From the NCBI GenBank assembly GCA_020053055.1, contig JAGVNX010000077.1, forward strand, positions 1 to 35,199: DNA of 35,199 nt. Reading direction: 5' to 3'. Shown piece after piece: positions 10,366 to 33,076 of the stretch. The notes under the pieces were generated by a model, which saw nothing but the letters and a program-made list of their open reading frames with translations, had not been told where the DNA came from and made no database searches. How positions within the stretch are numbered: position 1 is the first letter of the stretch; the number at the start of each line of letters is the position of its first letter. Origin of the DNA: Candidatus Iainarchaeum sp. GTDB taxonomy: Archaea > Iainarchaeota > Iainarchaeia > Iainarchaeales > GCA-2688035. The position numbers were made by a program, and so were the translations under genes.

Positions 10366-10860
10366 ATGAATTCTAGAGGACAAGCAGCGTTAGAATACCT
10401 GATGACCTACGGCTGGGCCTTAGTAATCATTGTGGTGGTAGCAGGAATCCTGTTCTTCATCATAAGCAGCCCAAGCGGCGGAGTATCATGCAGTTCAAAC
10501 GATCCAACAAAGTTTCCTGTAGTTTCAAGTAACGTAATTTCCACAGATTCAACCAGTGAAATCAAGCTTACTAATGGCACTGGAGGACAAATTACTGTTA
10601 CTGGCACAGCAGGAACTACCCCTTTTGTTGTTACTGGTGCGGCTTTAGGAGCAACAATCAATGCTACTCTTATGACCGCAACTGGAATGACAAAGGTAGT
10701 TGGTGGAGGAGCAAGTGTTATAATTGTGCCAGACTATGGTACAACTACTTGGGGAACAACGGAGAATAAAACGGGTTCATACACAGTAACATACACAGAC
10801 CAATTTGGGTATACTGGTAAATCATTGATAGTGACCTGCCAAGGAATGCCAAAAACATAA
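10366..10860 (+). CDS. class III signal peptide (archaeal type IV) pilin-like protein
   Basis: MNSRGQAALEYLMTYGWALVIIVVVAGILFFI followed by a Thr/Gly-rich beta domain. Confidence 0.9.
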   Translation: MNSRGQAALEYLMTYGWALVIIVVVAGILFFIISSPSGGVSCSSNDPTKFPVVSSNVISTDSTSEIKLTNGTGGQITVTGTAGTTPFVVTGAALGATINATLMTATGMTKVVGGGASVIIVPDYGTTTWGTTENKTGSYTVTYTDQFGYTGKSLIVTCQGMPKT

Positions 10861-16094: not shown

Positions 16095-17111
16095 TTACAT
16101 GCCGAGCAGTTTGAGGCTTCCGAGGACTTGTGCTAAAACAATTCTTATTATGAAGAATAGGGCTAGTGCTATTATTCCTACTATTGGCATGTATCTTATT
16201 CCATCTTTTTCTTTGCCGGAGTTTATTACCCCCATTATTAGCGAGGAAAAGAAGCATGTTACTCCTAGTGCGAGCAGTGCGTACATTGTTGCGAATTCTT
16301 CTGTTATTGATATTTCTGGTATTCCTATTATTTTTGTTATTGAGCTTTGTTGTGTAATTTCTTTTAATTTTTCTGGGCTTAAGCCTATTTGGCTTGTTTG
16401 CACGTTTAATACTCCTACTATGTATGAGGAAATGCTGAATAGCACTGGTGCTCCGATTGCTGCTCCGAAGAATATTAGCATTATGTACATGCTTACTTCT
16501 GCTTTTGTTTCTTCTTTTAACGCGTTTTCTTCCCTTAAGTCATCGGCTAATTGTGATAATAGGTCTGCTACTTCTCCGCCGCTTCTTATTCCTTGCACTA
16601 CCAGCCACATTGTCCTTTCAAGCAATGGGCTTTTGATTCTTGTTGTTATGTCTGTTAAGGCTGTTTCTATTCTTTCTCCTGCCATTACTTTTCCGCTTGC
16701 AAGTTTTAGTTCTTCTGAAAAAATTCCGAATTCTGGCCTTGCTGATGCGAGCAATGCTCTTTCTGTTGTCAAGCCTGATTTCATGTTTGAAGAAATTAAT
16801 TGCAGTACGTCTGGCAGTATTTTGTCTACGAATTTTCCCCTGGTTTCAGCTACTGTGTTCAGCCAGTAGTATATGCCTCCTGAGAATCCGAGCAGAATCA
16901 GGGGGAATGTTGCGATTATTGGCAGTGCCAAAAATATTTGGAGGTTTGCTGCTATTGCTATGCTTAGTATTGTGCCGAATATGAAAATGAATCCTACTAC
17001 GCTTAGTTCTTGTGCTTCCCAGCCAATGTAACCCATTTCTTTTTTGAATGCCTTTACTATGAAAGGGGGGATTATTGTGCCTATTCTTTGGTAGAAACCC
17101 ATTTTTTTCAC
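16095..17111 (-). CDS. type II secretion/TadC-like (GspF-domain) membrane protein
   Basis: Hydrophobic helices plus FVDKILPDVLQLISSNMKSGLTTERALLASARPEFGIFSEELKLASGKVMAGERIETALTDITTRIKSPLLERTMWLVVQGIRSGGEVADLLSQLADDLRE (T2SF motif). Confidence 0.9.
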   Translation of the reverse strand: MKKMGFYQRIGTIIPPFIVKAFKKEMGYIGWEAQELSVVGFIFIFGTILSIAIAANLQIFLALPIIATFPLILLGFSGGIYYWLNTVAETRGKFVDKILPDVLQLISSNMKSGLTTERALLASARPEFGIFSEELKLASGKVMAGERIETALTDITTRIKSPLLERTMWLVVQGIRSGGEVADLLSQLADDLREENALKEETKAEVSMYIMLIFFGAAIGAPVLFSISSYIVGVLNVQTSQIGLSPEKLKEITQQSSITKIIGIPEISITEEFATMYALLALGVTCFFSSLIMGVINSGKEKDGIRYMPIVGIIALALFFIIRIVLAQVLGSLKLLGM

Positions 17112-17118
17112 TTTTTTT

Positions 17119-17994
17119 TTAATTCATTATTGTTGGCCTTCTGGATTTTATTATGCCGATGTACATGAATTGCATTATTGTTATTCCTATTAGCATTACC
17201 CAGAATATTGTTTCGCCTATTTTTATTGCCGGAAAGCTTCCCAGTATAATCAAAAATGTTAATCCCAATGCCGGGGCTATTACTCCTATCATCATGTATG
17301 CCAGTGAAAGTATTCTTAATTGCGAGGAGTATCTGTTTATTGCTATTCTTTGGTCTCTGGCTGCTGATTTTACTGTTTCTTTTATTATGCTTGAAATGTC
17401 TCCGCCTGCTTTCATTCCGTTTACTAGTTGCCAGAGTGCTTTTCTGAAGTATTCGCTTGGATTGTTTGTTGCAAGCTTTTGGAAGACTTCGTCGTACATG
17501 CTGCCAGTGTTTATTTCGTCCACTGCTTTTGAAAATTCTTTGCTTAGTTCGCCGTAATTGCTTTTTGCTATCATTTGCAGTGCGTCAAACAGGCTGACTC
17601 CGCTTTTTATTTCAATTAACAGGGTTCTTAATGCGAATAACAAGTTTTTTTCTAATTCTCTTTGTTTTTTTCTTATCTGCATTGTCGGGTACATTGATAA
17701 TTGGATGAATGTTGCCAATGCCATTATTCCCGACATTGTGAAGCCCAATAATAAATAATTTGGCGTGAATTTTGTCAGGATTATTGTGAATAAGGCGCCA
17801 AATAATAGAAAATAAAATCCGCCTAAAAATAGCATCATTGCAAGGTATTCTTTTATCTGGAATTCCATTCCTGCTTGTTCCAATTGCAATTCCAGCCCCG
17901 GGAAAATGCCTTTGAATTTTATTGCCATTGGGATTAGGGGCCGTGAAAGTCTTCTCAGCATTGGAATAGGGAACATGTTGAAAGGCAGTGCCAT
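17119..17994 (-). CDS. type II secretion/TadB-like (GspF-domain) membrane protein
   Basis: ELEKNLLFALRTLLIEIKSGVSLFDALQMIAKSNYGELSKEFSKAVDEINTGSMYDEVF...LVNGMKAGGDISSIIKETV. Confidence 0.9.
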   Translation of the reverse strand: MALPFNMFPIPMLRRLSRPLIPMAIKFKGIFPGLELQLEQAGMEFQIKEYLAMMLFLGGFYFLLFGALFTIILTKFTPNYLLLGFTMSGIMALATFIQLSMYPTMQIRKKQRELEKNLLFALRTLLIEIKSGVSLFDALQMIAKSNYGELSKEFSKAVDEINTGSMYDEVFQKLATNNPSEYFRKALWQLVNGMKAGGDISSIIKETVKSAARDQRIAINRYSSQLRILSLAYMMIGVIAPALGLTFLIILGSFPAIKIGETIFWVMLIGITIMQFMYIGIIKSRRPTIMN

Positions 17995-17999
17995 TTTTT

Positions 18000-20900
18000 T
18001 TACAACTCCGGTTTTTTGTTTTTTTCCACTAATTTTTTTATTTCATCAATGTCTTGGTAGCATTGGGCCATTATTTTTCCAACGCTGTTTACGTTGTGTA
18101 TGTCGTATGCCACCATCCAATTCAATATGCTTGTTTTTGTTTTCAATTCTTGCTGTATTTCGTTTTGGCTTAATCCTGTGTGCAGTGACAATTCGTCATA
18201 GAATCTTATGCTTTCATTGTGCGCAACAATTTTGTCATCGCTGCTTCTCCACCTGTAAATTATGTTTGGCTTTATTTCCAGTTCTTTTCCCCTTTTTTCA
18301 GGAATAAATTCTGCTGCTTCTAAGACTCTTCTTGAGCCTAAGCGCCTGTTCCTGAACATTACTATGTTTAAATGCACTGAATCTAGCATTGAAATTGGAA
18401 TTGAAACAGGCGGGTTTACAAGCCTTGTAATTGTTTCGTCAGCAGTGTTTGCATGGATTGTCGTGTAAACACTGTGCCCCGTGTGCATTGCTTCAAACAT
18501 TACTTCTGCTTCGCTTTGCCTTCTCACTTCTCCCACTATTACTCTGTCAGGGCGCATTCTCAAAGAATTTATAAGCAAGTCAAGCATTGTTATGCCGCCT
18601 TTTCCTTCCGGGTTTGGCTCTCTTGTTGTCAAGGGAACCCAGTGCAAAAAATCCGGAAGCATTAATTCCCTTGTATTGTGGCATATTATGTTGTTTGCCA
18701 CAAAGCTTTCATTTTCCGGAACGCTTAAGTCATAAACAAAGCCTTCAAATTCTTTTTGCTCAATTTCTTCAACTTGGTCCCAGAATATGCCGTTGCTTGC
18801 GAGTTCTTTAAGTTCTGCGGGTAGTTCTTCTTCATATTTTTCAACTAGCTTTTGCAAGGTTCTTCTTCCAATGTTGCTGTTATTGTGGCCATAGCTTTTC
18901 CAGCTTTTGTAGGTTCTTGTTTTTCCAACTTCCTGCTTTATTGCTTTTTTTATTTCTTTGTAATATTTTTTTGGAATTGGAATTATGTCTGAAACATCAT
19001 GGCTGTTCTGCGTTAGCCATTTTTCGCTTGCCACTGTTTTTTTGTCAATGCAAAACCCAATTTCCACTGCAAATTGCTTCAAAAATTTTGTTCCAGAAAT
19101 TCTCGCTTCAAATGTCTTGTCTTTGCGCATTTTCCATTTTATTCTCAGTGGAATCCCAAATCTTAACAGCATTGTTTGCGTGTCCTGCAATAACTGCCTT
19201 GAAGCCGAAACTATTGCAATGTCATTTTTTCTTACCCATCCGTCTCCGGAGAAATATCCGTTTAGCAAAGCGGCTGCAATTGGTGTTTCAAGCCTGAAAG
19301 CCCAGCCTGGAATTTTTTTTGTATAAGCATTGCCTTTCAGTTCTAAAACGTTTTCCAAAAATTGCTTGAATGGCTTTGAATTAATCATTAAGGTTATTCC
19401 ATCAGAATGCATTTTTGTTTTTAACCCGAATCTTTCTGCTATTGCTTCAACAGTTGCCCTCGCTTCAGGCTCTACTATTGAAACAAGAACGCTGTTTTTG
19501 TCATAACAGCCGTCAGCAAGCCACAACCCTGCAAATCTTGCCCATGTTTCATCAATTTCTATTTGCATTGGAATTTTTGTCCCAAGCTTTGAGGAAATCC
19601 AGCCTGTTTCCGGCTTTTCATTTATTAGTTCAATCATTGCCGTGCTTGCAAAATTTTTTCTGATAGACTTGTTTATAAGTTGTTTTTGGTAATTTTTGCA
19701 TAGCAGTTCCCTGTTTTTTTCAATCAAAGGGGCTATTTCAAGGCTTTTGATGAAACACCCCTTGAATGCTTCCAGATGCTCTTTCAAATTGAAAATTATT
19801 TTTTCTCCTTGCCATTCCAAACAGCGCGGAGTTGCAAGAAAACTTTTTTTTGTTATTTTCTTGCCAAGAATTGTTTCTATTTTTCCGTTTTCGTTTAATG
19901 CAAATAATGAATGGTCCGGGGTTACTTTTATTTGCCTCCCGCTTTTGAGTGTTATTTCTAAAATGTCTTTTTTTACCCAGTGCCTGATGAAATGGCTTGG
20001 TTTTTTCCAATCTATTTTTCCAAGAGGGGGCATGCTTATTATTTCTATTTCTTCGTCATTTTCGAGTGCTGTGTCTTTTATTGAATCGTCTTCAATCAGT
20101 GCATCAATTAGTTCTCCGATTGTTGTTTTTTGAATTTTGTTGTTTTGTTTGATTATTATTTCGCTTTCTCCGGCAACACTGTCTTCAATTGAGAGCACCC
20201 TGTGGTTTGGCTGTATGAATGGCATGCAGACGTTCAAAAAGCTTGTTTTTCCAGAGGCTGTTCCTCCGCTTATGAGGATGTTTAATTCGTATTCTATGGC
20301 TTCCCATATGAGCGCCATTAGTTCTGCGCTTGCTGTTTTGGTTTTTATAAAGTCTGTTACTGTCCACGGGTCTCTTCTGAAGCGCCTGATTGTCACTGTG
20401 TTTCCTTTGCTTGAAATTGGAAAGAGCGTTGCATTTGCCCTGTCTCCTGTTATTAAGTGGGCATCGAGCAGTGGCGCGAGTATTGTTATTTGTTTTCCCA
20501 CGCGCCTTGCTATTATGTTTGCATAGTTTTCTATTTCTGCTTCTGTTTCTATTTTCACGTTTGTTTTGAGCCAACCGTATTTTTTGTGGTAAACCCACAG
20601 GGGTTCTTGGCTTTTGTTTATTACTATTTCTTCCAGGTCTCCGTCTGATAACAAGAATTCTATTCTTCCAAGGCCGAGCATTTCGTGCATTAGTATGCCA
20701 ATAAGCGCTTTTTTTGTTTCTTCTGCCTCGCTTGGAAGTTCAATGTCAAGGATTTTTTGGGCTTTTTCAACGAATTTGCCGCGGATTTTTTCCACTGCTG
20801 CCATGTCTAACTGGCCTGTTCTTGAAACTATTTCTGCCACAAGGCTTTTTTTGAGGTTTGTGAGCAGTGCGCTTGTTCCTGCGCCGTAGCTTGGAAAATT

Positions 20901-21023
20901 AAGGTGGTATAAATTTACAAATTCTTTGGGGTCGTGGATTATGTTGATTTCTACTTTTAAGCCGTCTGTTTCAATTGCATAGGATTCTATTACAAGGTAT
21001 TTTCCGTCTGTTTCTGTCGCCAT
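18000..21023 (-). CDS. type II/IV secretion system ATPase (TadA/VirB11-like) containing an intein
   Basis: ILISGGTASGKTSFLN (Walker A), VLSIED|intein|TRELMLPDFLHW (Asp box), RPDRVIVGEVRRQSEAEVMFEAMHTGH (Walker B/His box). Confidence 0.95.
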   Translation of the reverse strand: MATETDGKYLVIESYAIETDGLKVEINIIHDPKEFVNLYHLNFPSYGAGTSALLTNLKKSLVAEIVSRTGQLDMAAVEKIRGKFVEKAQKILDIELPSEAEETKKALIGILMHEMLGLGRIEFLLSDGDLEEIVINKSQEPLWVYHKKYGWLKTNVKIETEAEIENYANIIARRVGKQITILAPLLDAHLITGDRANATLFPISSKGNTVTIRRFRRDPWTVTDFIKTKTASAELMALIWEAIEYELNILISGGTASGKTSFLNVCMPFIQPNHRVLSIEDSVAGESEIIIKQNNKIQKTTIGELIDALIEDDSIKDTALENDEEIEIISMPPLGKIDWKKPSHFIRHWVKKDILEITLKSGRQIKVTPDHSLFALNENGKIETILGKKITKKSFLATPRCLEWQGEKIIFNLKEHLEAFKGCFIKSLEIAPLIEKNRELLCKNYQKQLINKSIRKNFASTAMIELINEKPETGWISSKLGTKIPMQIEIDETWARFAGLWLADGCYDKNSVLVSIVEPEARATVEAIAERFGLKTKMHSDGITLMINSKPFKQFLENVLELKGNAYTKKIPGWAFRLETPIAAALLNGYFSGDGWVRKNDIAIVSASRQLLQDTQTMLLRFGIPLRIKWKMRKDKTFEARISGTKFLKQFAVEIGFCIDKKTVASEKWLTQNSHDVSDIIPIPKKYYKEIKKAIKQEVGKTRTYKSWKSYGHNNSNIGRRTLQKLVEKYEEELPAELKELASNGIFWDQVEEIEQKEFEGFVYDLSVPENESFVANNIICHNTRELMLPDFLHWVPLTTREPNPEGKGGITMLDLLINSLRMRPDRVIVGEVRRQSEAEVMFEAMHTGHSVYTTIHANTADETITRLVNPPVSIPISMLDSVHLNIVMFRNRRLGSRRVLEAAEFIPEKRGKELEIKPNIIYRWRSSDDKIVAHNESIRFYDELSLHTGLSQNEIQQELKTKTSILNWMVAYDIHNVNSVGKIMAQCYQDIDEIKKLVEKNKKPEL
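18675..20180 (-). mobile_element. intein with LAGLIDADG homing endonuclease (502 aa), inserted SIED^TREL
   Basis: N-terminal block SVAGESEI, TPDHSLFAL (block B), FAGLWLADGCYD and LLNGYFSGDGWV (LAGLIDADG), FVYDLSVPENESFVANNIICHN followed by Thr. Confidence 0.95.
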
Positions 21024-21098: not shown

Positions 21099-23489
21099 TT
21101 AGTTTTTAGTTTTTTTTGTTTTTTTTAATCCAAATAATCCTTTTTTCTTTTCCCCTAAATCTGTTTGCGGCTGGTTTTGCCGGTTTTTTTCAGGTTTTTC
21201 TTTTGGTTTTTTTTGGGGTTTTACATAATTTGCGATTTTAATTATTGTGTCTCCGAATGCGGGGTATTCTATTTTTATGAGGCTTTCGTTTTCTAGTATG
21301 TTTATTAGTTCTTCAAGCCGTTTTTTTTCAATTTTGGTTTCTTTTTGCAATTCGCCTGTTCTTATTGTGCCTTTTTCTTTTATTATCTGCAAAGCCCTGT
21401 CAAGGTCTGTTTCAATAAGATAGTTTCTGATTTCTTTTTCTGTTGTCTTTATTTTTTCTTTTTCTTTGTTTTCAAGGGTTGTTGGAAAAGTCGGCATTTC
21501 TACTTCTGACCAGGTTTCTTCAATTGGCTCAATAATTACCCTGCGCGGTTCTTCCCTTGGTTTTTTGAAAAATCTCGTAATCGGCAATGGTTTTATGTGA
21601 ATTTCTTTTTTTGGCCTTTGCATTTCCCGGACTTTTGAAGTGATTTTTTGCATTTCTTCGAGTTCTTCTTGGCGGGAATTCCAGCCTTCTTCCCTGCTTG
21701 CTGCGTCTGCTTCTGTGATTTCAGCTTGTTTTTCGGCAGGTTCTTCAATTGGCTCTGTTTGTTCGCCGATTTTTTCGGGGTATTCTTGCGATTGTTGTTT
21801 TTGTTCTTCTTTTGGAATTTTTGTTTCTCGCATGGTTTGATTAATTTTGACATTTGCCGTGTATTGCTGGTTTTCTTTTTTTTGCGTTTTTCCAAACATT
21901 TTTCCAAAAATGCCTTTTTTTTCCTGTTGTTTTGGCAAAATTGTTTCTGCTCTTGGTGTTTCTTCCGGGCTTTTTTCTGTTGTTGCAGCAGTTGTTTGCG
22001 TTGAAACCGGGATTGTTTTCTGCGCTTGCCCTTCTGCAATTGGCTGCTGCATTGTTTCTGTTTGCCTTGGCAAAACCTGGTTTTCTTGGATTGGCGTGCT
22101 TGCCAGCCATGGAAACTGGAATCCTTTTTTTTCAATTTCCTGTTCAGCTTGCCTTTGGAGTTCGTTCATTTTTACGAGTTTTTCAAGGCTTGCCAGTAAT
22201 TGGTTGCTGTCCAATGGCTTTATTTCCCGGGCAATTGTCTGTTCCGGCATTTTGTAGTTGTTTAATAATTCTACAAGATAATTTTCTATTTCCATCATTT
22301 TTTCGTCGCTTATTCTTCCGGAAAGCTTTTGCGTGATTATTTTTTCAAGTTCGCCGCTTAATTTTTTTCCCTTGTTTTTTGGAGCGCTTTTTGTTTTTTC
22401 CAAAATTTTCTTTTTTTCTTCTAACTCGTAGAGTTTTGACTGGTAATCCATTACTTTTTCCTGAAAATCAGGGAGAGGAATTCGTCGTTTGTAAAAGTCT
22501 ATTTCCATGCGTTTCTGCATTCTTTTCATTTGTTCTATTTGCTGGTCAATGTTCAGCATTCCCTCGTTGCTTTCTATTACTATTTTTGGTTTTGGCGTTG
22601 CCCGCACCAATGTGCCGGCTGCGAGCATGATTGCTTTTGCGGCTTCAGCCAAATCAGTCATTGTTTTCAGTTCAAAAGGCGATTTTGTTTCTTCTTTGAA
22701 AATAATCTGGCCTTTTGACTGGTTGTCGGCAAGTTGTTCCATTTCAAGGTCTTCTTTTGCAAAAGCAACTTTGTTAAGGAGCGCAATTTGTGTTTTGTAT
22801 TCGCGGATTTTTTTTGACAGGCCTGCTTTTTTTCTGAGCTGTTCTTCTGAAAGCTTTTTTTCTTCCTGCGCGTGCTTTAATTGGTTCAGTTCTCTTTGGT
22901 ATCTTGTTTGCCAGGATTCAAGCCTTGTTATTTTTAGCCTTATTTTTCTCAGGTTTTCCCTTAATGCCCTTGGCTCTTCTTTTATTTTTTCATAAACGCC
23001 TTCCAGTTTTTCCATTTCCGGGGATTCTGGCTGGAATTCTTCGCTTTTTTCCTGCCCTGAAAAAAATTCAGGGTTTTTTTGCGTTTCGGCATAGCCTTGT
23101 TCTGTTTCAAATGTTTTTTCCCGCGCTTCTTTTTTTGTTTTTCTTTTGAAAATCCTGCTGAACAATCTTGAAAAAAAGCCTTGTTTTTTTCCAGGCTCTT
23201 TTGCCTGTTCTGCGAATAATCTTTTTTTTGCACTGTCTTCTATTTGTGCTTTTATCATTTCCTTTAAAATCGGCTTGTCTCCGGAAATTTGGGTTTCAAC
23301 AATTCTGCCGATTTCTGTTTTTAATTGGTCAAAAGTTTGGGCTTGGGAAACAAGCAGCATTCTTCTTGCTTCGTCGTCTTTTGCCCCGAGGGCTTTCAGT
23401 GTTTTGAGTATTTTGTCTTCTGTTTCGCCTTCCCTAATCATTTCGCTGATTATTTTTATTATTCCTTTTTCGCTTTTTTCTGCAGGCAT
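21099..23489 (-). CDS. large coiled-coil/disordered protein with C-terminal winged-helix-like domain
   Basis: Charged heptads and Gln/Glu-rich linker; C-terminal ALQIIKEKGTIRTGELQKETKIEKKRLEELINILENESLIKIEY. Confidence 0.75.
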   Translation of the reverse strand: MPAEKSEKGIIKIISEMIREGETEDKILKTLKALGAKDDEARRMLLVSQAQTFDQLKTEIGRIVETQISGDKPILKEMIKAQIEDSAKKRLFAEQAKEPGKKQGFFSRLFSRIFKRKTKKEAREKTFETEQGYAETQKNPEFFSGQEKSEEFQPESPEMEKLEGVYEKIKEEPRALRENLRKIRLKITRLESWQTRYQRELNQLKHAQEEKKLSEEQLRKKAGLSKKIREYKTQIALLNKVAFAKEDLEMEQLADNQSKGQIIFKEETKSPFELKTMTDLAEAAKAIMLAAGTLVRATPKPKIVIESNEGMLNIDQQIEQMKRMQKRMEIDFYKRRIPLPDFQEKVMDYQSKLYELEEKKKILEKTKSAPKNKGKKLSGELEKIITQKLSGRISDEKMMEIENYLVELLNNYKMPEQTIAREIKPLDSNQLLASLEKLVKMNELQRQAEQEIEKKGFQFPWLASTPIQENQVLPRQTETMQQPIAEGQAQKTIPVSTQTTAATTEKSPEETPRAETILPKQQEKKGIFGKMFGKTQKKENQQYTANVKINQTMRETKIPKEEQKQQSQEYPEKIGEQTEPIEEPAEKQAEITEADAASREEGWNSRQEELEEMQKITSKVREMQRPKKEIHIKPLPITRFFKKPREEPRRVIIEPIEETWSEVEMPTFPTTLENKEKEKIKTTEKEIRNYLIETDLDRALQIIKEKGTIRTGELQKETKIEKKRLEELINILENESLIKIEYPAFGDTIIKIANYVKPQKKPKEKPEKNRQNQPQTDLGEKKKGLFGLKKTKKTKN

Positions 23490-23507
23490 AAAAATCACTT
23501 TTCAATT

Positions 23508-24689
23508 TTATTGTGCATTTCCAATTTTAAGATTTGTAAAACCAGGTTTTGAAACATTAAAATCAAAACCATTAAATTTAATCAATGAAATCGGCTTGTT
23601 AAACATGATTTTTGTTGCAATGGTTACTGGGTTGTGCTGGGAAGGCTTGTTGTCCATGGAAACTATGATTTTTGGCGTGCCAGACAATTTTGTAAAATTC
23701 AAGACAAAAACATCAGTATAGCCTCCGACATAAAGTTTTAATTTGAAATAATTGTTGATGCTTGTGCGAACATGGTTTGCGGCTTTCGCGCTGCAGCATG
23801 TCACATCGCAAGGCGGTTGCCATGCACAATCTGCAATCGGGATTGCAGTTGAAATGCTTGCATACGGATTGCTGTTTGCTTGCAAGAATGGGTTTAAAAC
23901 CGGGTTTTTTGAGCCTGCTGTAAGGTCGCCGTAAAATTCCCATTTTTGTATTATAAGCGGCAGGCATGTTGGTGGCAGGGGCCCTCCTCCTCCTCCCCCT
24001 CCTCCTGGCGCGCAGTATTTTTTCGGAAAGGAAACATTGAAATCTATTCTTCTTATCTGGCTTATGTCAAAGCTGCATCCTTTTGACTGGCCGTCAGTAA
24101 AAATGTTCAGCTGTGGCCCTGTTGGCTGGGTATCATATAAAATGCATTCGTCTAAAATCAGGTAGGTAAGCTTGTCATTGCCGCCCCAATCTGAATTTTT
24201 AGCAGCCCTTGCAGTTATGTTTAAGTCGCCGTTTATGTTTTTGTCTGAAACAAAAATTGAGTAAAGGTTCAGAGAATCAAAAATTTTTTTTGTTTGCTCG
24301 TCTGCAGAATCAATTGGAGTTACCTGGCTTATTTCAATCCATCCGCATCCATTGGGAGAAGCATTTGGGCCTGTGCATGGGCAGATATCGTGGTCGTCAC
24401 TTGTTTCGCAGCCTGGCTGGATACAATTGTCAGCGCAGGCAATGTTTCCTGAATCATATTCAAAGGGGGTAAGAATTCTGCTTTGCATTCTTCCTGCATA
24501 GCCTGTTTTCATTGCCAATATTTCATTGTAAATGTTTTGAAAACCAGTGCTTGCTGAATTGAAAGCTGTTTCTTCTATTATGCTTTGCTTTTGCCATGTG
24601 GCTGTTTGTTTCACTCCGCTTCCGGCAAGAATCACTGCAAGCCCCATGAGAAATATTATAAAAGCAAGGAAAAAGCCTTTTTTGTTCAT
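23508..24689 (-). CDS. secreted/membrane-anchored Cys-rich protein of the filament locus
   Basis: N-terminal MNKKGFFLAFIIFLMGLAVILAGS TM/signal, Cys-rich ectodomain, poly-Gly tract. Confidence 0.75.
   Translation of the reverse strand: MNKKGFFLAFIIFLMGLAVILAGSGVKQTATWQKQSIIEETAFNSASTGFQNIYNEILAMKTGYAGRMQSRILTPFEYDSGNIACADNCIQPGCETSDDHDICPCTGPNASPNGCGWIEISQVTPIDSADEQTKKIFDSLNLYSIFVSDKNINGDLNITARAAKNSDWGGNDKLTYLILDECILYDTQPTGPQLNIFTDGQSKGCSFDISQIRRIDFNVSFPKKYCAPGGGGGGGGPLPPTCLPLIIQKWEFYGDLTAGSKNPVLNPFLQANSNPYASISTAIPIADCAWQPPCDVTCCSAKAANHVRTSINNYFKLKLYVGGYTDVFVLNFTKLSGTPKIIVSMDNKPSQHNPVTIATKIMFNKPISLIKFNGFDFNVSKPGFTNLKIGNAQ
23982..24005. repeat. eight-codon poly-Gly GGN microsatellite
   Basis: Minus strand GGA GGA GGG GGA GGA GGA GGA GGG encoding Gly8 flanked by Pro. 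Confidence 0.8.
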
Positions 24690-24691
24690 TT

Positions 24692-27600
24692 TTATTTCAC
24701 CCAGGCAGAGTATTGCACTTTGAAATAATAAACTTTTGATTCGCTTAAGCAATAAATTTTTGCTATGTTGTTTCTGCTGCAGTCTTTTGCCCCGCTTATT
24801 ACCCCCCAAATGTAATCATCTCCCCAGAGTCTTGTGCCATTAATTGAAACAGTGTAATTTGGCACTGCTGGAAGAGGGGTGTATTTTACATTGCCATCTT
24901 GTATTGCTGGGGTTCCACACTGTTCTCCTTCGCTTACGCATATGATGGGCGGCACAGATTCAACAGCTTCTACTTGGTGTGTTAGCGTGCTGTTGTCGTA
25001 AAAGCCCACATAAAGGGGGTTTGCATCTCCTGTGAAGCCTACACAGTTCAGGTCAAAGTTTATTCTGGTGTCTGTTTGGCTGTTTATTGTTCCGCTTGTG
25101 AATTTTATTTGGCAATCCCTGTATCTAAAATTTACTGTTTGCCTGCATGTTGTTAAATCATAAAGGCAATCTGGTGCACAAGTGCTGTCACAAAGCGTGT
25201 CTGTTCCCCAAGCATAATTGTTTTGGTCTTTTATTATTGTTGTCTGAATTGTTGGAAATTGCGCTGTATCGCTTTGGCAGTATTCCCCTGTGCAGGGAAT
25301 TCTTTCCAAAAACGTTTGGCTTGTATAGTCTCCTGTAATGTCAACATCAAATATTATGCTTTGATTTGTCCATTCTGCCTCTGTTGTGCAGGCAGGGCCC
25401 CATATAATCCCAGCTGATTTTTGGCATTTGTAATCTTGGGTGTATCTTTCGCATTTGCATATTTCTGTCCCCGGCTCTGCAGGTATTACTACTTGGGTAT
25501 TTGGAATTGCTGTTCCAATTTCCTCTGCAATTATCGCGTAAATTTCAGCCAGTGCACTTTGGTCTGCTGCATAATAATACCTTCCGCATTTTTTTGTAGT
25601 GTCAATTGTATAATCCCCAATATCATAACCAGGCAGGCAATCAGGATATTTTGGATTTTCGCCTGTTTTTCTTACTTTTGTCTGGTCTAGGCATGCAGTT
25701 CCATTTTCAGTATATGCATAGCAAGGCTCTTTTGCAACGTCTCTTAAAGATTCTTCATTAACTTCTGTTCCAAATCCAATTGTATAAATCGTTGCACCCA
25801 AAAGGTTTCTTGCATTGTCTGCTGCACTAATTGCATATTCTACTGCTGTTGAAGCAGGCTCAGGCTTGTTTGCCAAGCCGTCTGATAATAAGACAATTGT
25901 TTTTCTGTATCCTGCCAGGTCGCCATTGCTTAATGAGTTTGTAGCGCTTGTTATTGCAGCGCCTATGTTTGTTTCGCCTGTAGCTGCAAGGCTGTCCAAA
26001 GCCGCTTTCAATTCTGCTTTTCCTAGGTCATTAAGGGCTGTTGGAACTTGGTTTTCTGTGGCTGTGTCTGAATATGAAATGATTCCCATTTTGTCATTGG
26101 TTTTCCATTGTGCGTTATCAATAAAGCTTGCTGCAGCATCTGCTGCAGCATCAAGCCTTTGAGTATTCCATAATATTGAATATGTGTCGCCTAAAGAACT
26201 AAGGTCATTGCTCCATCCCAAAACTTGCCATGTTCCTTCTGCAATATCCAATGCCCTTTCTCCAGTAGTGCACGAATTGGTGTCATTTGTGCTATTTCTG
26301 TTTATTGCTATGCAACTGTTTGTGATTGGTTTTTGGCCATTTGCATTGGTATCTGCCAGTCCTGAACCTGTTGGCGCTTTTAATGTAAATTTTTGATAAT
26401 TGCATGGCCCTCCATAGTTAGTTGCCCCGATTGTTGCTTTCAGGCCTCTTGTTTTGCTTGTTATGTTTAATGAATCCAGCAAAGAGTATGTTGAAGGGTT
26501 TGGATTGTTACATGTTCCGCTTGTTCCAGATGCACAGGTTGATCCAGCGCATGTCCCGGTATTGTATTCTGCAGTAGGGTAAGAAGTATATGGCGTTCCA
26601 TTGATTGTAACTGGTTCTACTTTTCCTACAAACAATTCATGTTCATATTCTATCCGATCTGAGTATGTTTCTTTTTCAGCCCATGCTTCAATTGTCCAGT
26701 TCCCTGTTGGCAGAGTTGTTGGAATAAATGGCGCACTAGAAATACCAGCCAAAGGGTCGAACGAATTGCCAATAATCGCATAGTTAGTTGGGCTTGTTTT
26801 TGTTGGAGGCACTGTGGCAACAACAGTACCACTCGGGTTTTTAACTCTTAATCCAACTCCGCACTCGCCTTCGGGATAAAACTGATAGTACGTGTTATAT
26901 AAACGTACTCTAAGCGCGTAAGTTGAGGGGTCTAATATTGGTATTGTGCCAACAATGTGCCAATCACTTTCATTAGGAGAACACGTGTTTATTGCTGGTA
27001 TCATTGCCCAGATGTAGATAGTTCGCGGAACCATGTATATTCCAACCCAAATTGGCTTGTTTATTATTGTCTGTTTGTCTGCCCATAAGTCAATTGTCCA
27101 GTTTCCAGGTACAATAATTTGGTTTCCAGGCAAAACAATGTTGCTTTTTGTCAAACCTGCATAATAGGTTGCAGCATTCACTGAAGGCGAGGATTCAGCA
27201 TACCAGGGACTTGATTTATTTGGCGTCCATAATCTTATTTTTGCACTTGAACATACATAGGGATTTGCATCTGTTTTTGTGGTATATCTGTTCCAAAAGT
27301 AAATTGCATCGGTCTCGCGTACCATTTTATCGCGTATTTCTGGTGTCATGTTAAAGCTTCCAACATTCGGTATCCAGCCTGTGTAATTTCCGCAGTTGCT
27401 TGGCGTGTCTTGTGTGCAGGTGCCTGGCGGGTCTGGCTGGCAAGTGCCATTGTTGAAAGGGCCGTCTGCATATGATTTTTTTCTCATGTCCAGTTTGCTC
27501 ATGCTTCCGCTTTTGTCCATTATTGTCATTATTGCTATTGGGCTTCTAAAACCGCTTTTTTCGCTTATTGTTACTGTTGCAATTTCATTGTCATCTATTC

Positions 27601-28267
27601 CATTTTCAGAATCGTAACAATACATTGTTGATGCTGGAAAAAACGGTTCCGGTGTTTCTCCATAGGGCGGAGTGTTTGTTGCGTTTACTTTTGTTGTTAT
27701 TGTTGATAGGTCATCTAATTGCAGGGCAGTGTTTTTTTTGTTTTTTTGCTCTGTTTCTATTATGCAGCTGTTTGCTATGTTATCTTTCAGGTATGGCTGT
27801 CTTTTCATGAATGCCTGGCTTCCAGTATAAATTTCTTTGTTTTCAGGTATTTGATTTCCTCCTGTTACTGTTGAATTTAGGTCAAAGCAGTCGTCAAATT
27901 TTTTTGTGCTTTTGCATTCTGTTAGCGCTTCTGTTTTTTGTTCGTATTGTTCTATTTGTATGTTTAAATCCATGTTTTCCGGCAATAGTTTTTTCATTTC
28001 AAAATAGATTGTGTTTGCATCCAGGTTTGTCAGGGGGTCTCCTGTGTTGTCTACGAATACTCGCCCGATTATGCCATTGTTGTCCATTGCTGTTATTGTG
28101 TCGTCAAGCATTTGTTTTGAATTTGTTTGCTGTGTTATGCTGGTTGTCTGTGTTTCTGTCCTGAGCCCTAATCCTATATAGGATGTTAGTGCAATGAGGA
28201 TTACTATTGCAAATAATGTGTCAAGTGAAATTGCGAATCCTTTGGCTCTAATTTTTGTAATGCCCAT
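24692..28267 (-). CDS. pilin-like-anchored VWA-domain protein with a large insertion (putative filament tip/adhesin)
   Basis: N-terminal KGFAISLDTLFAIVILIALTSYIGLGL; MIDAS IMTIMDKSGSM; RLDAAADAAASFIDNAQWKTNDKMGIISYSDTA; GETNIGAAI; IVLLSDGLAN; IYTIGFG. Confidence 0.88.
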   Translation of the reverse strand: MGITKIRAKGFAISLDTLFAIVILIALTSYIGLGLRTETQTTSITQQTNSKQMLDDTITAMDNNGIIGRVFVDNTGDPLTNLDANTIYFEMKKLLPENMDLNIQIEQYEQKTEALTECKSTKKFDDCFDLNSTVTGGNQIPENKEIYTGSQAFMKRQPYLKDNIANSCIIETEQKNKKNTALQLDDLSTITTKVNATNTPPYGETPEPFFPASTMYCYDSENGIDDNEIATVTISEKSGFRSPIAIMTIMDKSGSMSKLDMRKKSYADGPFNNGTCQPDPPGTCTQDTPSNCGNYTGWIPNVGSFNMTPEIRDKMVRETDAIYFWNRYTTKTDANPYVCSSAKIRLWTPNKSSPWYAESSPSVNAATYYAGLTKSNIVLPGNQIIVPGNWTIDLWADKQTIINKPIWVGIYMVPRTIYIWAMIPAINTCSPNESDWHIVGTIPILDPSTYALRVRLYNTYYQFYPEGECGVGLRVKNPSGTVVATVPPTKTSPTNYAIIGNSFDPLAGISSAPFIPTTLPTGNWTIEAWAEKETYSDRIEYEHELFVGKVEPVTINGTPYTSYPTAEYNTGTCAGSTCASGTSGTCNNPNPSTYSLLDSLNITSKTRGLKATIGATNYGGPCNYQKFTLKAPTGSGLADTNANGQKPITNSCIAINRNSTNDTNSCTTGERALDIAEGTWQVLGWSNDLSSLGDTYSILWNTQRLDAAADAAASFIDNAQWKTNDKMGIISYSDTATENQVPTALNDLGKAELKAALDSLAATGETNIGAAITSATNSLSNGDLAGYRKTIVLLSDGLANKPEPASTAVEYAISAADNARNLLGATIYTIGFGTEVNEESLRDVAKEPCYAYTENGTACLDQTKVRKTGENPKYPDCLPGYDIGDYTIDTTKKCGRYYYAADQSALAEIYAIIAEEIGTAIPNTQVVIPAEPGTEICKCERYTQDYKCQKSAGIIWGPACTTEAEWTNQSIIFDVDITGDYTSQTFLERIPCTGEYCQSDTAQFPTIQTTIIKDQNNYAWGTDTLCDSTCAPDCLYDLTTCRQTVNFRYRDCQIKFTSGTINSQTDTRINFDLNCVGFTGDANPLYVGFYDNSTLTHQVEAVESVPPIICVSEGEQCGTPAIQDGNVKYTPLPAVPNYTVSINGTRLWGDDYIWGVISGAKDCSRNNIAKIYCLSESKVYYFKVQYSAWVK

Positions 28268-28373: not shown

Positions 28374-29006
28374 TTAATTGTATGCCCAGAGTTCCATTGT
28401 TGCTGTTCCGCTGTAGCTTGTGCCTTCGTAATACACTATTCTTTTTTGCACTATTGTTTTTTTTGTGCTTGAGCCAATTGGGGTTATGCCTGTTGCCATG
28501 TCGGTTTCCTGGCCTCGAATTTTTTCCTTAATCAGGGTTTCTTGCGGGTTTTTGTTTGGGTCAAAATAATAAAACCGAAAATAATAGTTCATGTCTCCCA
28601 GCAATAATATTTTTGCCTTTGTTTTTTCATAATTTTCAAAGCAGTTTGTTGTGCAGTCATCCCAGATTTTTCCGTATTCCACAAATTTGGCAAGCTTGTT
28701 TTTGTCTATTGCCCTGTCTCTTTTTGCAAGGCCAATGAACAGTACATTGTCAATGCTTGGGTCAAATTGCCAGTCTGTTCCGCCATTTGTTTTTTCTCCG
28801 AGGTTTTTTACCATGAAATTCAATGCCCTTGAGCTTGTTGCTTCCAGTTCATAGTCTATCAGCTGGTTTTCTGCAAAAGAATTTTGGTTTTCCCAGATTG
28901 TCACTGCGATTGCAAGAACTGCAAGAAAAATTGTTGTTCCGATTACTATGTCTAAAGAAACTGCCTGGGCTTTTTTGTCACTGTGAAGTGAATACAACAA
29001 AACCAC
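28374..29006 (-). CDS. pilin-like minor protein
   Basis: DKKAQAVSLDIVIGTTIFLAVLAIAVTIW hydrophobic N-terminus, extracellular domain. Confidence 0.75.
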   Translation of the reverse strand: MVLLYSLHSDKKAQAVSLDIVIGTTIFLAVLAIAVTIWENQNSFAENQLIDYELEATSSRALNFMVKNLGEKTNGGTDWQFDPSIDNVLFIGLAKRDRAIDKNKLAKFVEYGKIWDDCTTNCFENYEKTKAKILLLGDMNYYFRFYYFDPNKNPQETLIKEKIRGQETDMATGITPIGSSTKKTIVQKRIVYYEGTSYSGTATMELWAYN

Positions 29007-29394
29007 CTTTTTTTGACAGCTTGTATTGGGCTTGGGTTCCCTCTGCTAAGGAAATCCCGCCTGCATTTGTGTCTCCATGCTCTTTGTCAAATTGTGCATT
29101 TCCAAAATAATTGCAGGAATAATTGTCAATTGTTATCTGCCCTGGCTTTGCCGCAATTTTTTTTATTACCGCTGTTTTTTCAACAAAAATATTTTTTTCA
29201 GCTAAGCCTTGGCTTGCATAAATTTCTGAAATCGCATCAGCTATTTTGTTGCATTCAATGCTGTTAGAATTTATGCTTGTTATCCTGTTACTTTGGATGT
29301 TTTGCTGGGCATAGGCCGTTACCCCAACCAAAAGCAGCAGCATTGCCACTAATGCTGCAATAAGAAATTCAAAGGAAACCTGTGCTTTTTTCAA
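28978..29394 (-). CDS. class III signal peptide pilin-like protein
   Basis: MKKAQVSFEFLIAALVAMLLLLVGVTAYAQQ. Confidence 0.85.
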   Translation of the reverse strand: MKKAQVSFEFLIAALVAMLLLLVGVTAYAQQNIQSNRITSINSNSIECNKIADAISEIYASQGLAEKNIFVEKTAVIKKIAAKPGQITIDNYSCNYFGNAQFDKEHGDTNAGGISLAEGTQAQYKLSKKGGFVVFTSQ

Positions 29395-29405: not shown

Positions 29406-29933
29406 TTATTTGTCAAGCCGAATTAGTTTTCTTTCTGTCCAGCTTGCTTTGATTTTGTATCTAAAATTGTTTATCAAAATGTCTCCTGGGATTACAAGCC
29501 TTGCTTTTGTGGGATAGAGCAGTTCGTTTCCGGAATTTTCAGTTACTTTTACAGCGCTTGATTTTATGCAATCAGGGTCATCACTGCATTGTCTTAATGG
29601 GTCTGCAGTGTTGCAGGTGCATCCTGCTCCTTGTGTGCTTGCTATTGGGCATCCTTTTAGTTCCGAATCTGTTTTGCATATGCTCCAGATGCTGATGCTT
29701 GTTACTTGGGTTGGCCAGCTTGCTTCTGCAAATTGGATGTTTCCCGGCCCCATTGCATAAACAAGGTCTATTGTCTGGACAAGGTTGTCAAGGCTTTCGC
29801 CTGTTTGCTGTGCGCTTATGCTCTGGCTTGTTGTTGCCAGCGAAGCGCTGAACAGGACCACTACTATTACCATTGCAAATACGCTTACAATCAGATATTC
29901 CATTGCTGCCTGTGCAGTGCATGCGAGCTTCAT
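29406..29933 (-). CDS. class III signal peptide pilin-like protein
   Basis: AQAAMEYLIVSVFAMVIVVVLFSASLA; Cys-rich ectodomain. Confidence 0.85.
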   Translation of the reverse strand: MKLACTAQAAMEYLIVSVFAMVIVVVLFSASLATTSQSISAQQTGESLDNLVQTIDLVYAMGPGNIQFAEASWPTQVTSISIWSICKTDSELKGCPIASTQGAGCTCNTADPLRQCSDDPDCIKSSAVKVTENSGNELLYPTKARLVIPGDILINNFRYKIKASWTERKLIRLDK

Positions 29934-29983: not shown

Positions 29984-31315
29984 TTACAGTTCTATTTCCT
30001 GGGATTCTTTTGGAATAAAAATTTCTTTTTTCAGTTTTTTTTCAAGGGTTTTTTTGAATTCCGGCAATTTTTCTTTTTCGCCGTGAATCAAAAAGGTTTT
30101 CTGTGCGTTCACTGCTGATGCAAAATTCAGCAGCCCGTTGTAATCCGCGTGCCCGGAAAATTTTATTCGGCAGGTTTCGCATTGCACAAAAATTTTTTTT
30201 CCGTTCAATTCAACTGTTTTTTTTCCTTCAAGAAGCTCTCTTCCCAGGGAGCCTTCTGCCTGGTATCCGACAAGGATAACGCAATTTTTTTTTGACCCCG
30301 CGAGTTTTTTGAGGTGTTGCCTGCTCGGGCCGCCTGTCAGCATTCCTGAAGTTGCGATTATCACTGCGTTTTTTGATTTGAAGACTTCTTTTTTTGTTTT
30401 GCTTTGGGGTTGTTTGAAAAAAGGGCTTTTGAAAGCGTCATCGTCAGCCATTAAAATCCTGTTTGGAATTTCCGGGCGCATGAAACTTACGTTGTGCCTG
30501 CAAATCCTGTTTGCCTTGTTGACCATGCCGTCAAGCCAGATGTCAATTTCGGGCAGATAACCGCTTCTGATGTAATTGTCTATTGTGAACATTACTTCCT
30601 GGCCTCTGCCTACTGCAAAGCTTGGAATCAGTATTTTTCCGTTTCTTTTCAAGACCTGTTTTATTTTGTCTGCCAGTTCCTTGCTTGATTTTTGCATTGA
30701 AGGCAGAATGTCTTGTTTTCCGGCATAAGTGCATTCCATAACCAGAAAATCTATTTTTTCTTTTGGCAGGTCTGCCGGCAAAAGCAGGTTGCTTTCTCGT
30801 GTATTGATGTCCCCTGAATATAATAATTTTTTTCCGTCAAATTCAATTATTGTTTCCGCGCTTCCGATTATGTGGCCTGCGTTCAAAAATTTTATTTTTA
30901 TTTGCGAGTCAGGGAATAATTGTTTTTCCTCGTTGTAATTGATTGCAACGATTTGTTTCATTGTCTTGTCGATTTCTTTTGTCCCATAAAAGGCCAGTTT
31001 GTTTTCCTTTGCGATTTTTGCGGAATCGCTCAAAAGCAAATGCATAATGTCCCTTGTCGGCGGTGTTGCAAAAATTTTTCCTCCAAATCCTTGTTTGACA
31101 AGAAAAGGCAGGTAACCGCAGTGGTCAATATGGGCATGGCTGATTATTATGGCGTCAATTTTTTTTGCCAGTTCTTTTGGAATTTTTGGCAATTCCGGGT
31201 TTCCTTTCCCTATTTTTATGCCAGCGTCAACCAAAATTTTTTTGTTTTTTGTTTCAAGCAGCACTGCATTCCTGCCGACTTCCATGCAGGCTCCAAAAAA
31301 AGTGATTTTTGCCAT
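29984..31315 (-). CDS. beta-CASP metallo-beta-lactamase nuclease (archaeal CPSF/Ysh1-like, without KH domains)
   Basis: ISHAHIDHCGYLP, NAGHIIGSAE, LLYSGDIN, MECTYAG, PSFAVGRGQEVM, IIATSGMLTGGPSRQHLK, KFSGHADYNGL, FLIHGE. Confidence 0.93.
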   Translation of the reverse strand: MAKITFFGACMEVGRNAVLLETKNKKILVDAGIKIGKGNPELPKIPKELAKKIDAIIISHAHIDHCGYLPFLVKQGFGGKIFATPPTRDIMHLLLSDSAKIAKENKLAFYGTKEIDKTMKQIVAINYNEEKQLFPDSQIKIKFLNAGHIIGSAETIIEFDGKKLLYSGDINTRESNLLLPADLPKEKIDFLVMECTYAGKQDILPSMQKSSKELADKIKQVLKRNGKILIPSFAVGRGQEVMFTIDNYIRSGYLPEIDIWLDGMVNKANRICRHNVSFMRPEIPNRILMADDDAFKSPFFKQPQSKTKKEVFKSKNAVIIATSGMLTGGPSRQHLKKLAGSKKNCVILVGYQAEGSLGRELLEGKKTVELNGKKIFVQCETCRIKFSGHADYNGLLNFASAVNAQKTFLIHGEKEKLPEFKKTLEKKLKKEIFIPKESQEIEL

Positions 31316-32608: not shown

Positions 32609-33076
32609 ATGGCCTGTAAAAAACAAAAAGCCCAGGCTGGTTTGGAGTATTTGATGACCTATGGCTGGGCTTTGATTATTCTTGTTACTGTTGCTTCTGT
32701 TTTGTTTTTTGTTGTGAGCCCGCCAAGCCAGAATACTGTTTTTTTTAACAGTAATTCTGCAAATTTTGTTGTAAGAAGCAGCAATGTTGGTTCTGGTTCC
32801 GGCCCTCCTTTTACTCTTCAATTGCAGAATGCTTCCGGAAAACCAATTGCTATTACAGCTATGTTTTCCGCCAAATTTAGTTTTAATGCCCCTTATAATA
32901 ATTGTGGGCCTCCCGTTTGCAATATTTTGGTGGCAAGTGGGCAGGTTATGAATATTACTGGCAATGTTAGTTCTTCTTATGCGGATTCTGGGATAATATC
33001 AATTCAATACAAAATTGACAGTTACACAAAAACCGTGGTGATAAACGCAAGAGGAAAGATTCCAAGTGCAACTTAA
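32609..33076 (+). CDS. class III signal peptide pilin-like protein
   Basis: KAQAGLEYLMTYGWALIILVTVASVLFFVVSPPSQ; N-terminus closely matches the 10366 pilin. Confidence 0.9.
   Translation: MACKKQKAQAGLEYLMTYGWALIILVTVASVLFFVVSPPSQNTVFFNSNSANFVVRSSNVGSGSGPPFTLQLQNASGKPIAITAMFSAKFSFNAPYNNCGPPVCNILVASGQVMNITGNVSSSYADSGIISIQYKIDSYTKTVVINARGKIPSAT

Follow-up and report, generated by a model that had tools for sequence, protein, structure and literature searches.

What might a pilus protein do when its metal-binding von Willebrand factor A (VWA) domain is interrupted by several hundred residues between the metal-site motif and the first helix? The question is raised by Candidatus Iainarchaeum sp., an archaeon with a tiny genome that encodes a large pilus protein containing an interrupted metal-binding VWA domain. 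The window, i.e. the whole stretch of 35,199 nucleotides analyzed here, contains the gene of this pilin-anchored split-VWA protein (P0001, 1191 aa) as a single open frame at positions 24692–28267 of the minus strand. All genes and domains described below lie on the minus strand unless stated otherwise.

A pilin module followed by a divided VWA domain

The protein begins with a class III prepilin leader, MGITKIRAKG (residues 1–10; 28238–28267), read from the sequence, with presumed cleavage before FAISLDTLFA. The leader is followed by the hydrophobic helix FAISLDTLFAIVILIALTSYIGL, and the glycine just before the presumed cleavage site hardly varies among 24 aligned relatives. A short charged leader, a conserved glycine and a hydrophobic helix, by which type IV pilins are recognized, are all present, and the genome has two matches to the prepilin peptidase family (PF01478). 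The pilin module, delimited by alignment to about residues 11–235 (27563–28237), carries four cysteines that are invariant in the 24 aligned members of the family. Next come the first VWA strand, β1, and the MIDAS motif DKSGS (together residues 244–255; 27503–27538), an insert of 446 residues without any Pfam match (residues 258–703; 26159–27496) and the remainder of the VWA domain, from helix α1 to the last helix (residues 704–920; 25508–26158; PF00092 at 2.3e-14). The protein ends with a Cys-rich region (residues 946–1191; 24695–25432) that has no Pfam match in the window protein and is CARDB-like in some relatives, CARDB itself being found in one of them (L033). The last residues, YYFKVQYSAWVK, contain no LPxTG-type sorting signal, and a PDB sequence search with the protein gave no match.

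The two parts of the VWA domain behave as halves of a single fold. In the native protein, the Pfam VWA profile aligns only from its position 15 onward. When the insert was deleted in silico by joining residues 226–262 to residues 699–945, the joined halves matched VWA_2 over positions 1–106 of 107 with 64.8 bits, versus 49.0 bits for the part after the insert alone. A preliminary description of this DNA had placed the MIDAS at residues 251–255, the first VWA helix near residue 704 and an insert of about 440 residues between them. These positions are correct, since Pfam recognizes the domain from position 15 and the joined halves restore VWA_2; helix α1, RLDAAADAAASF, does begin at residue 704. 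The pilin-like N-terminus proposed at the same time is likewise confirmed by the class III leader and its conserved glycine.

The metal site itself is distributed over both sides of the insert, with D251, S253 and S255 before it and T766 and D796 after it. The MIDAS Asp and Ser of the first part are invariant in a 16-row alignment, and T766 and D796 are invariant in 27 aligned members; this co-conservation on either side of the insert provides independent support for one VWA fold. An AlphaFold model of residues 225–945 was calculated from the 16-row alignment, eight rows of which are bacterial VWAs with no or a short insertion that guide β1 into place. Strand 20–27 of the modeled fragment (residues 244–251, up to the MIDAS Asp) has a mean pLDDT of ~93 and the VWA core downstream of the insert mostly 83–94, while the insert itself is modeled poorly and with low confidence. 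A single-sequence prediction of the whole protein (mean pLDDT 29.9) was too poor to use. The best PDB fold matches of the model found with Foldseek are VWA structures, among them the pilin PilB; these local matches of ~140 columns are too short to bridge a gap of 446 residues and therefore rest on the second half of the domain. The expectation that DKSGS and the later segments would join in one fold thus agrees with the model, in which the MIDAS strand is placed with the VWA core. A complete Rossmann-like core emerges from the native and joined Pfam matches, the model and the PDB fold matches, and the domain is a split but complete VWA with a large insertion.

A constant insertion site with changing contents

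The division of the VWA domain is not peculiar to the window. Relatives of the protein were found by protein search in 34 of 54 genomes, and a profile of the pilin module plus MIDAS matched strongly in most of the families that make up the order. Outside the order but within the class, 12 genomes were scanned with this profile: 11 had no match and one had a short pilin match only. A genome scan with P0001 alone as query returned no relative, and none was found on viral contigs. The distance from the MIDAS Asp to α1 is 127–1120 residues (median 448) in 34 members, all from the same order of Iainarchaeota (Diapherotrites), versus 9–71 residues (median 9) in a comparison set of 68 further VWA proteins, retrieved by using part of the split-VWA family as query. 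The split is a trait of the whole family, in which the site is constant and the contents vary. This central point, a split shared by the family and a module that differs between relatives by exchange, did not figure in the preliminary description. Several secreted VWA proteins of patescibacteria (L064, L066, L072, L075 and L110) have a Cys- and Trp-rich loop of about 60–75 residues between MIDAS and α1, i.e. at the site of the archaeal inserts, which indicates that this site tolerates growth.

In the window, the insert consists of three copies of one β domain, each ending in a GxWx(I/V)xxW motif. These motifs (GNW, GNW and GTW) start at residues 388, 522 and 678, with spacings of 134 and 156 residues, in line with the three motifs about 130–160 residues apart noted in the preliminary description. 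The copies span residues 286–400 (27068–27412; end GNWTIDLW), 438–535 (26663–26956; end GNWTIEAW) and 577–688 (26204–26539; end GTWQVLGW). A leave-out HMM, built from the last domain before α1 in relatives without P0001 and without its genus-mate, scored them at 15.4, 14.1 and 34.1 bits, respectively. The best of 1000 shuffled inserts reached 11.3 bits, so that all three copies score higher; the first two are weak matches and yet lie above every shuffle. In some relatives, a single GxW domain of about 130–145 residues makes up the whole insert. Neither an intein nor any other Pfam family was matched in the insert of the window, and NCBIfam gave no name for it either.

Other members of the family carry different modules at the same position. 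The insert of L027 contains seven LVIVD repeats over about 290 residues (Pfam), from which a β-propeller is predicted, and LVIVD repeats also occur inside the inserts of many other relatives. One to three lectin-like Laminin_G_3 domains are found in the inserts of L016, L022, L024 and L026, and that of L019 combines LVIVD repeats with Laminin_G_3. In the same-genus relative L016, the MIDAS (residues 262–266 of the open reading frame) reads DRSLT instead of DxSGS, an altered site that possibly still binds metal.

Comparison at short evolutionary distance suggests how these contents change. The window protein and its same-genus counterpart are 71% identical in the pilin module, 57% in the rest of the VWA and 67% in the C-terminal region, and only 37% identical in the last insert domain. 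The first two insert domains have no similarity to the same-genus protein (local score 42, shuffle average 43), and the genus-mate has a LamG domain in their place. Over its first ~170 residues, the insert aligns at 36% identity with the more distant G004 (score 212, against at most 77 for shuffles); the pilin modules of the two proteins are themselves just 36% identical. L018 and L024, two paralogues encoded by one genome, are sisters in the tree and differ in their LamG content. The mismatch between genus-mates, the match to G004 and the difference between these paralogues together point to a slot at which modules have been gained, lost or replaced, although for the GxW domains at least the apparent turnover might reflect fast divergence instead of exchange. 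The propeller-containing members are separated from most GxW members in a tree built on 248 columns, whose deep branches are weakly supported; the change between the two types may have occurred once or a few times, and given those weak branches no claim is made as to how often one head replaced the other.

The pilus operon and the probable role of the split-VWA protein

The gene lies within a conserved pilus operon. Upstream are the genes of two small class III pilins of 175 aa (29406–29933) and 138 aa (28978–29394), both kept upstream in relatives, and, directly before the VWA gene, that of a conserved small pilin-like protein of 210 aa (28374–29006); Pfam and NCBIfam gave no name for the small pilins of the window. 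A gene for a β-CASP metallo-β-lactamase nuclease (29984–31315) heads the operon, a place that it keeps in several relatives. The conserved downstream neighbor encodes a pilin-like protein (23508–24689) with the N-terminus MNKKGFFLAFIIFLMG, as read from the sequence. Its open reading frame is listed as 433 aa from position 24809, and the likely start is at 24689, just past the stop of the VWA gene. It is followed by a charged protein of 799 aa (21099–23498) that is syntenic across the order inside the pilus operon and has a weak C-terminal winged-helix match (TFIIE_alpha, 0.011) under the curated cut-off. The assembly machinery comprises a T2SSE-type ATPase with an intein (18000–21023; T2SSE 1.6e-30, Intein_splicing 7e-26), which has archaellum FlaI and TadA models among its best NCBIfam matches, and two T2SSF platform proteins (17119–17994, Pfam 1.7e-16; 16095–17111, Pfam 4.3e-17). 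The intein of the ATPase bears LAGLIDADG domains and looks recently gained, since the ATPase reading frame in the same genus has about 519 codons. Two stand-alone class III pilins, possible major pilins, are encoded on the plus strand at 10366–10860 (QAALEYLMTYGWAL) and 32609–33076 (QAGLEYLMTYGWAL).

The order of three small pilins, VWA pilin, 433-aa protein, 799-aa protein, ATPase and two T2SSF proteins recurs across many families. In one genus (g5; L022, L047, L017 and L019), the block from the small pilins to the 433-aa protein is present twice in tandem and, where both copies are complete, one has a propeller-type insert and the other a GxW/LamG-type insert.

Taken with this setting, the protein probably belongs to an archaeal type IV pilus as a minor pilin located at the tip, where it presents swappable heads on the MIDAS face of its VWA domain. 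Its N-terminal pilin helix would dock it on the filament, with the VWA domain grafted on the pilin module, and it would sit at or cap the tip together with the three small pilins encoded upstream. By analogy with PilA, PilB and PilC of Streptococcus sanguinis, the split-VWA protein and the small pilins probably make up the tip and initiate assembly. The head, made of three GxW β domains, would emerge on the metal-binding face, out of the loop that connects the MIDAS strand to α1. Because the insert leaves the VWA domain at this face, the head is probably directed away from the filament and responsible, alone or in part, for the gripping. The head, the MIDAS or both would bind a partner surface; binding could also be achieved entirely by the insert, with a structural role for the MIDAS. 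The outward orientation of the head, the tip position, adhesion and a ligand are inferred; the complete though split VWA, the repeat domains, the constant site, its exchanged contents and the operon are computational results. In relatives, a LamG-type lectin or a β-propeller in the same slot would alter the grip of the pilus, and such different heads at one position make the protein look like a tip with interchangeable grips. With the conserved pilus operon taken into account, the filament-tip adhesin suggested in the preliminary description stands as a candidate and as the best interpretation. A broader proposal, plausible if slightly short of an even chance, is that the MIDAS loop serves as a general slot for interchangeable heads, in which this DPANN order swaps modules and duplicates whole cassettes independently of TadG.

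Other explanations have to be weighed against the tip pilin. The closest published plan is that of CpaL of Caulobacter, in which a pilin module is combined with one VWA in two segments and a β-rich region between them (PMC12607857). CpaL and TadG proteins also have in common with the archaeal protein a pilin-like N-terminus and a predicted tip complex with small pilins (PMC12607857). The ATPase of the archaeal operon is TadA-like, two platform proteins of the T2SSF type are encoded with it, and the archaeal VWA is remotely similar to Tad-type proteins. One may thus see in P0001 an archaeal TadG/CpaL orthologue that inherited its split VWA from a common ancestor and serves chiefly to sense surfaces or initiate pili, the roles proposed for CpaL. 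This is unlikely in view of the insertion site. In CpaL, the insert of about 180 residues follows α1, and the first VWA segment (148–203) extends well beyond the MIDAS at 160–164 (PMC12607857). In Tad-family proteins of several bacteria, α1 comes directly after the MIDAS and is followed by a gap of about 200 residues, whereas in the archaeal family the insert lies between MIDAS and α1. The archaeal insert is therefore not of the TadG type and represents a separate gain, irrespective of the origin of the pilin and VWA parts, which may share deeper ancestry with TadG. The independent evolution supposed at the outset is accordingly supported with respect to TadG, the nearest analogue.

An equally improbable view makes the VWA domain a force- or metal-gated mechanosensor, whose inserted domains mainly tune access to the MIDAS instead of binding surfaces. 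The insert does emerge beside the MIDAS, and the VWAs of PilY1 and CpaL have been proposed as mechanosensors (PMC12607857), but exchange of whole lectin-like or propeller modules is better explained by changing ligand specificity than by a fixed regulatory part. Somewhat less probable again is a location away from the tip, the protein being a VWA protein at the surface or associated with the S-layer, whose leader would serve membrane insertion only. Class III leaders in archaea do occur on proteins other than filament subunits. Against such a location, the gene is conserved between three small pilins and the ATPase and platform genes, and published modeling allows a bulky modular pilin at the tip only (PMC8179133). 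That the insert is an intein or the result of misassembly or gene fusion, as the intein in the adjacent ATPase might suggest, is next to impossible, and such a mobile or chance interruption was rejected: the insert has no intein or other Pfam match, and 34 members of the order have inserts at the same site.

Comparison with known systems

VWA modular pilins are known in bacteria. The searchable papers describe none in DPANN archaea, a group with poorly characterized contact organelles. A search for literature joining pilin, von Willebrand and DPANN found no paper, subscription papers being mostly outside its reach. In the available portion of a census of type IV pili in archaea from 2016, VWA proteins appear only as possible regulators and TadG is cited for bacteria (PMC4858521). 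The architecture described here is real, family-wide and well supported and, with its exchangeable heads in a VWA loop, a new form of modular pilin. A slot that stays the same while its heads differ offers a direct way to learn which host or surface each lineage binds; as ordinary secreted β domains, the heads are amenable to expression and testing.

The pilins PilB and PilC of S. sanguinis are similar in being class III modular pilins with a MIDAS-containing VWA and a concanavalin-like lectin at the tip, and they have been modeled as capping the filament (PMC8179133, PMC9934059). The PilB-type architecture, a VWA grafted on a pilin, is found in the archaeal protein, with a metal site predicted from sequence. 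In S. sanguinis, unlike in the archaeal protein, VWA (PilB) and lectin (PilC) are carried by separate pilins. The PilB VWA has two arms only, with 85 residues from Ser206 to Thr291 versus 513 from Ser253 to Thr766 here. These arms, which flank the MIDAS on a smaller scale than the archaeal insert, have been likened to RrgA (PMC8179133), a VWA tip adhesin of Streptococcus pneumoniae with arms around its own MIDAS.

The tandem cassettes of genus g5 have a parallel in the Kil pilus of Myxococcus, in which one machine is supplied with alternative Tips by several paralogous minor-pilin clusters that include a large variable pilin (PMC12075869). In the Kil system whole tips are exchanged, while in the archaeal family modules within one VWA loop change too, and no killing is implied. 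PilY1 is another tip protein with variable N-terminal domains, often including a VWA, and a β-propeller; it does not belong to the pilins, and it carries the propeller at its C-terminus, outside the VWA (PMC13190605).

A likeness to RrgA had been put forward for the archaeal protein at the start, and in that form it is not supported. RrgA is a sortase-pilus adhesin without a pilin module, whereas P0001 has a pilin leader and no LPxTG-type signal. Integrin α subunits also combine a VWA (I) domain with a β-propeller by insertion. Their order is reversed, the VWA being inserted into the propeller, whereas in the archaeal family propellers are inserted into the VWA, and this reversed integrin-like layout raises the question of whether the metal site and binding by the head are coupled.
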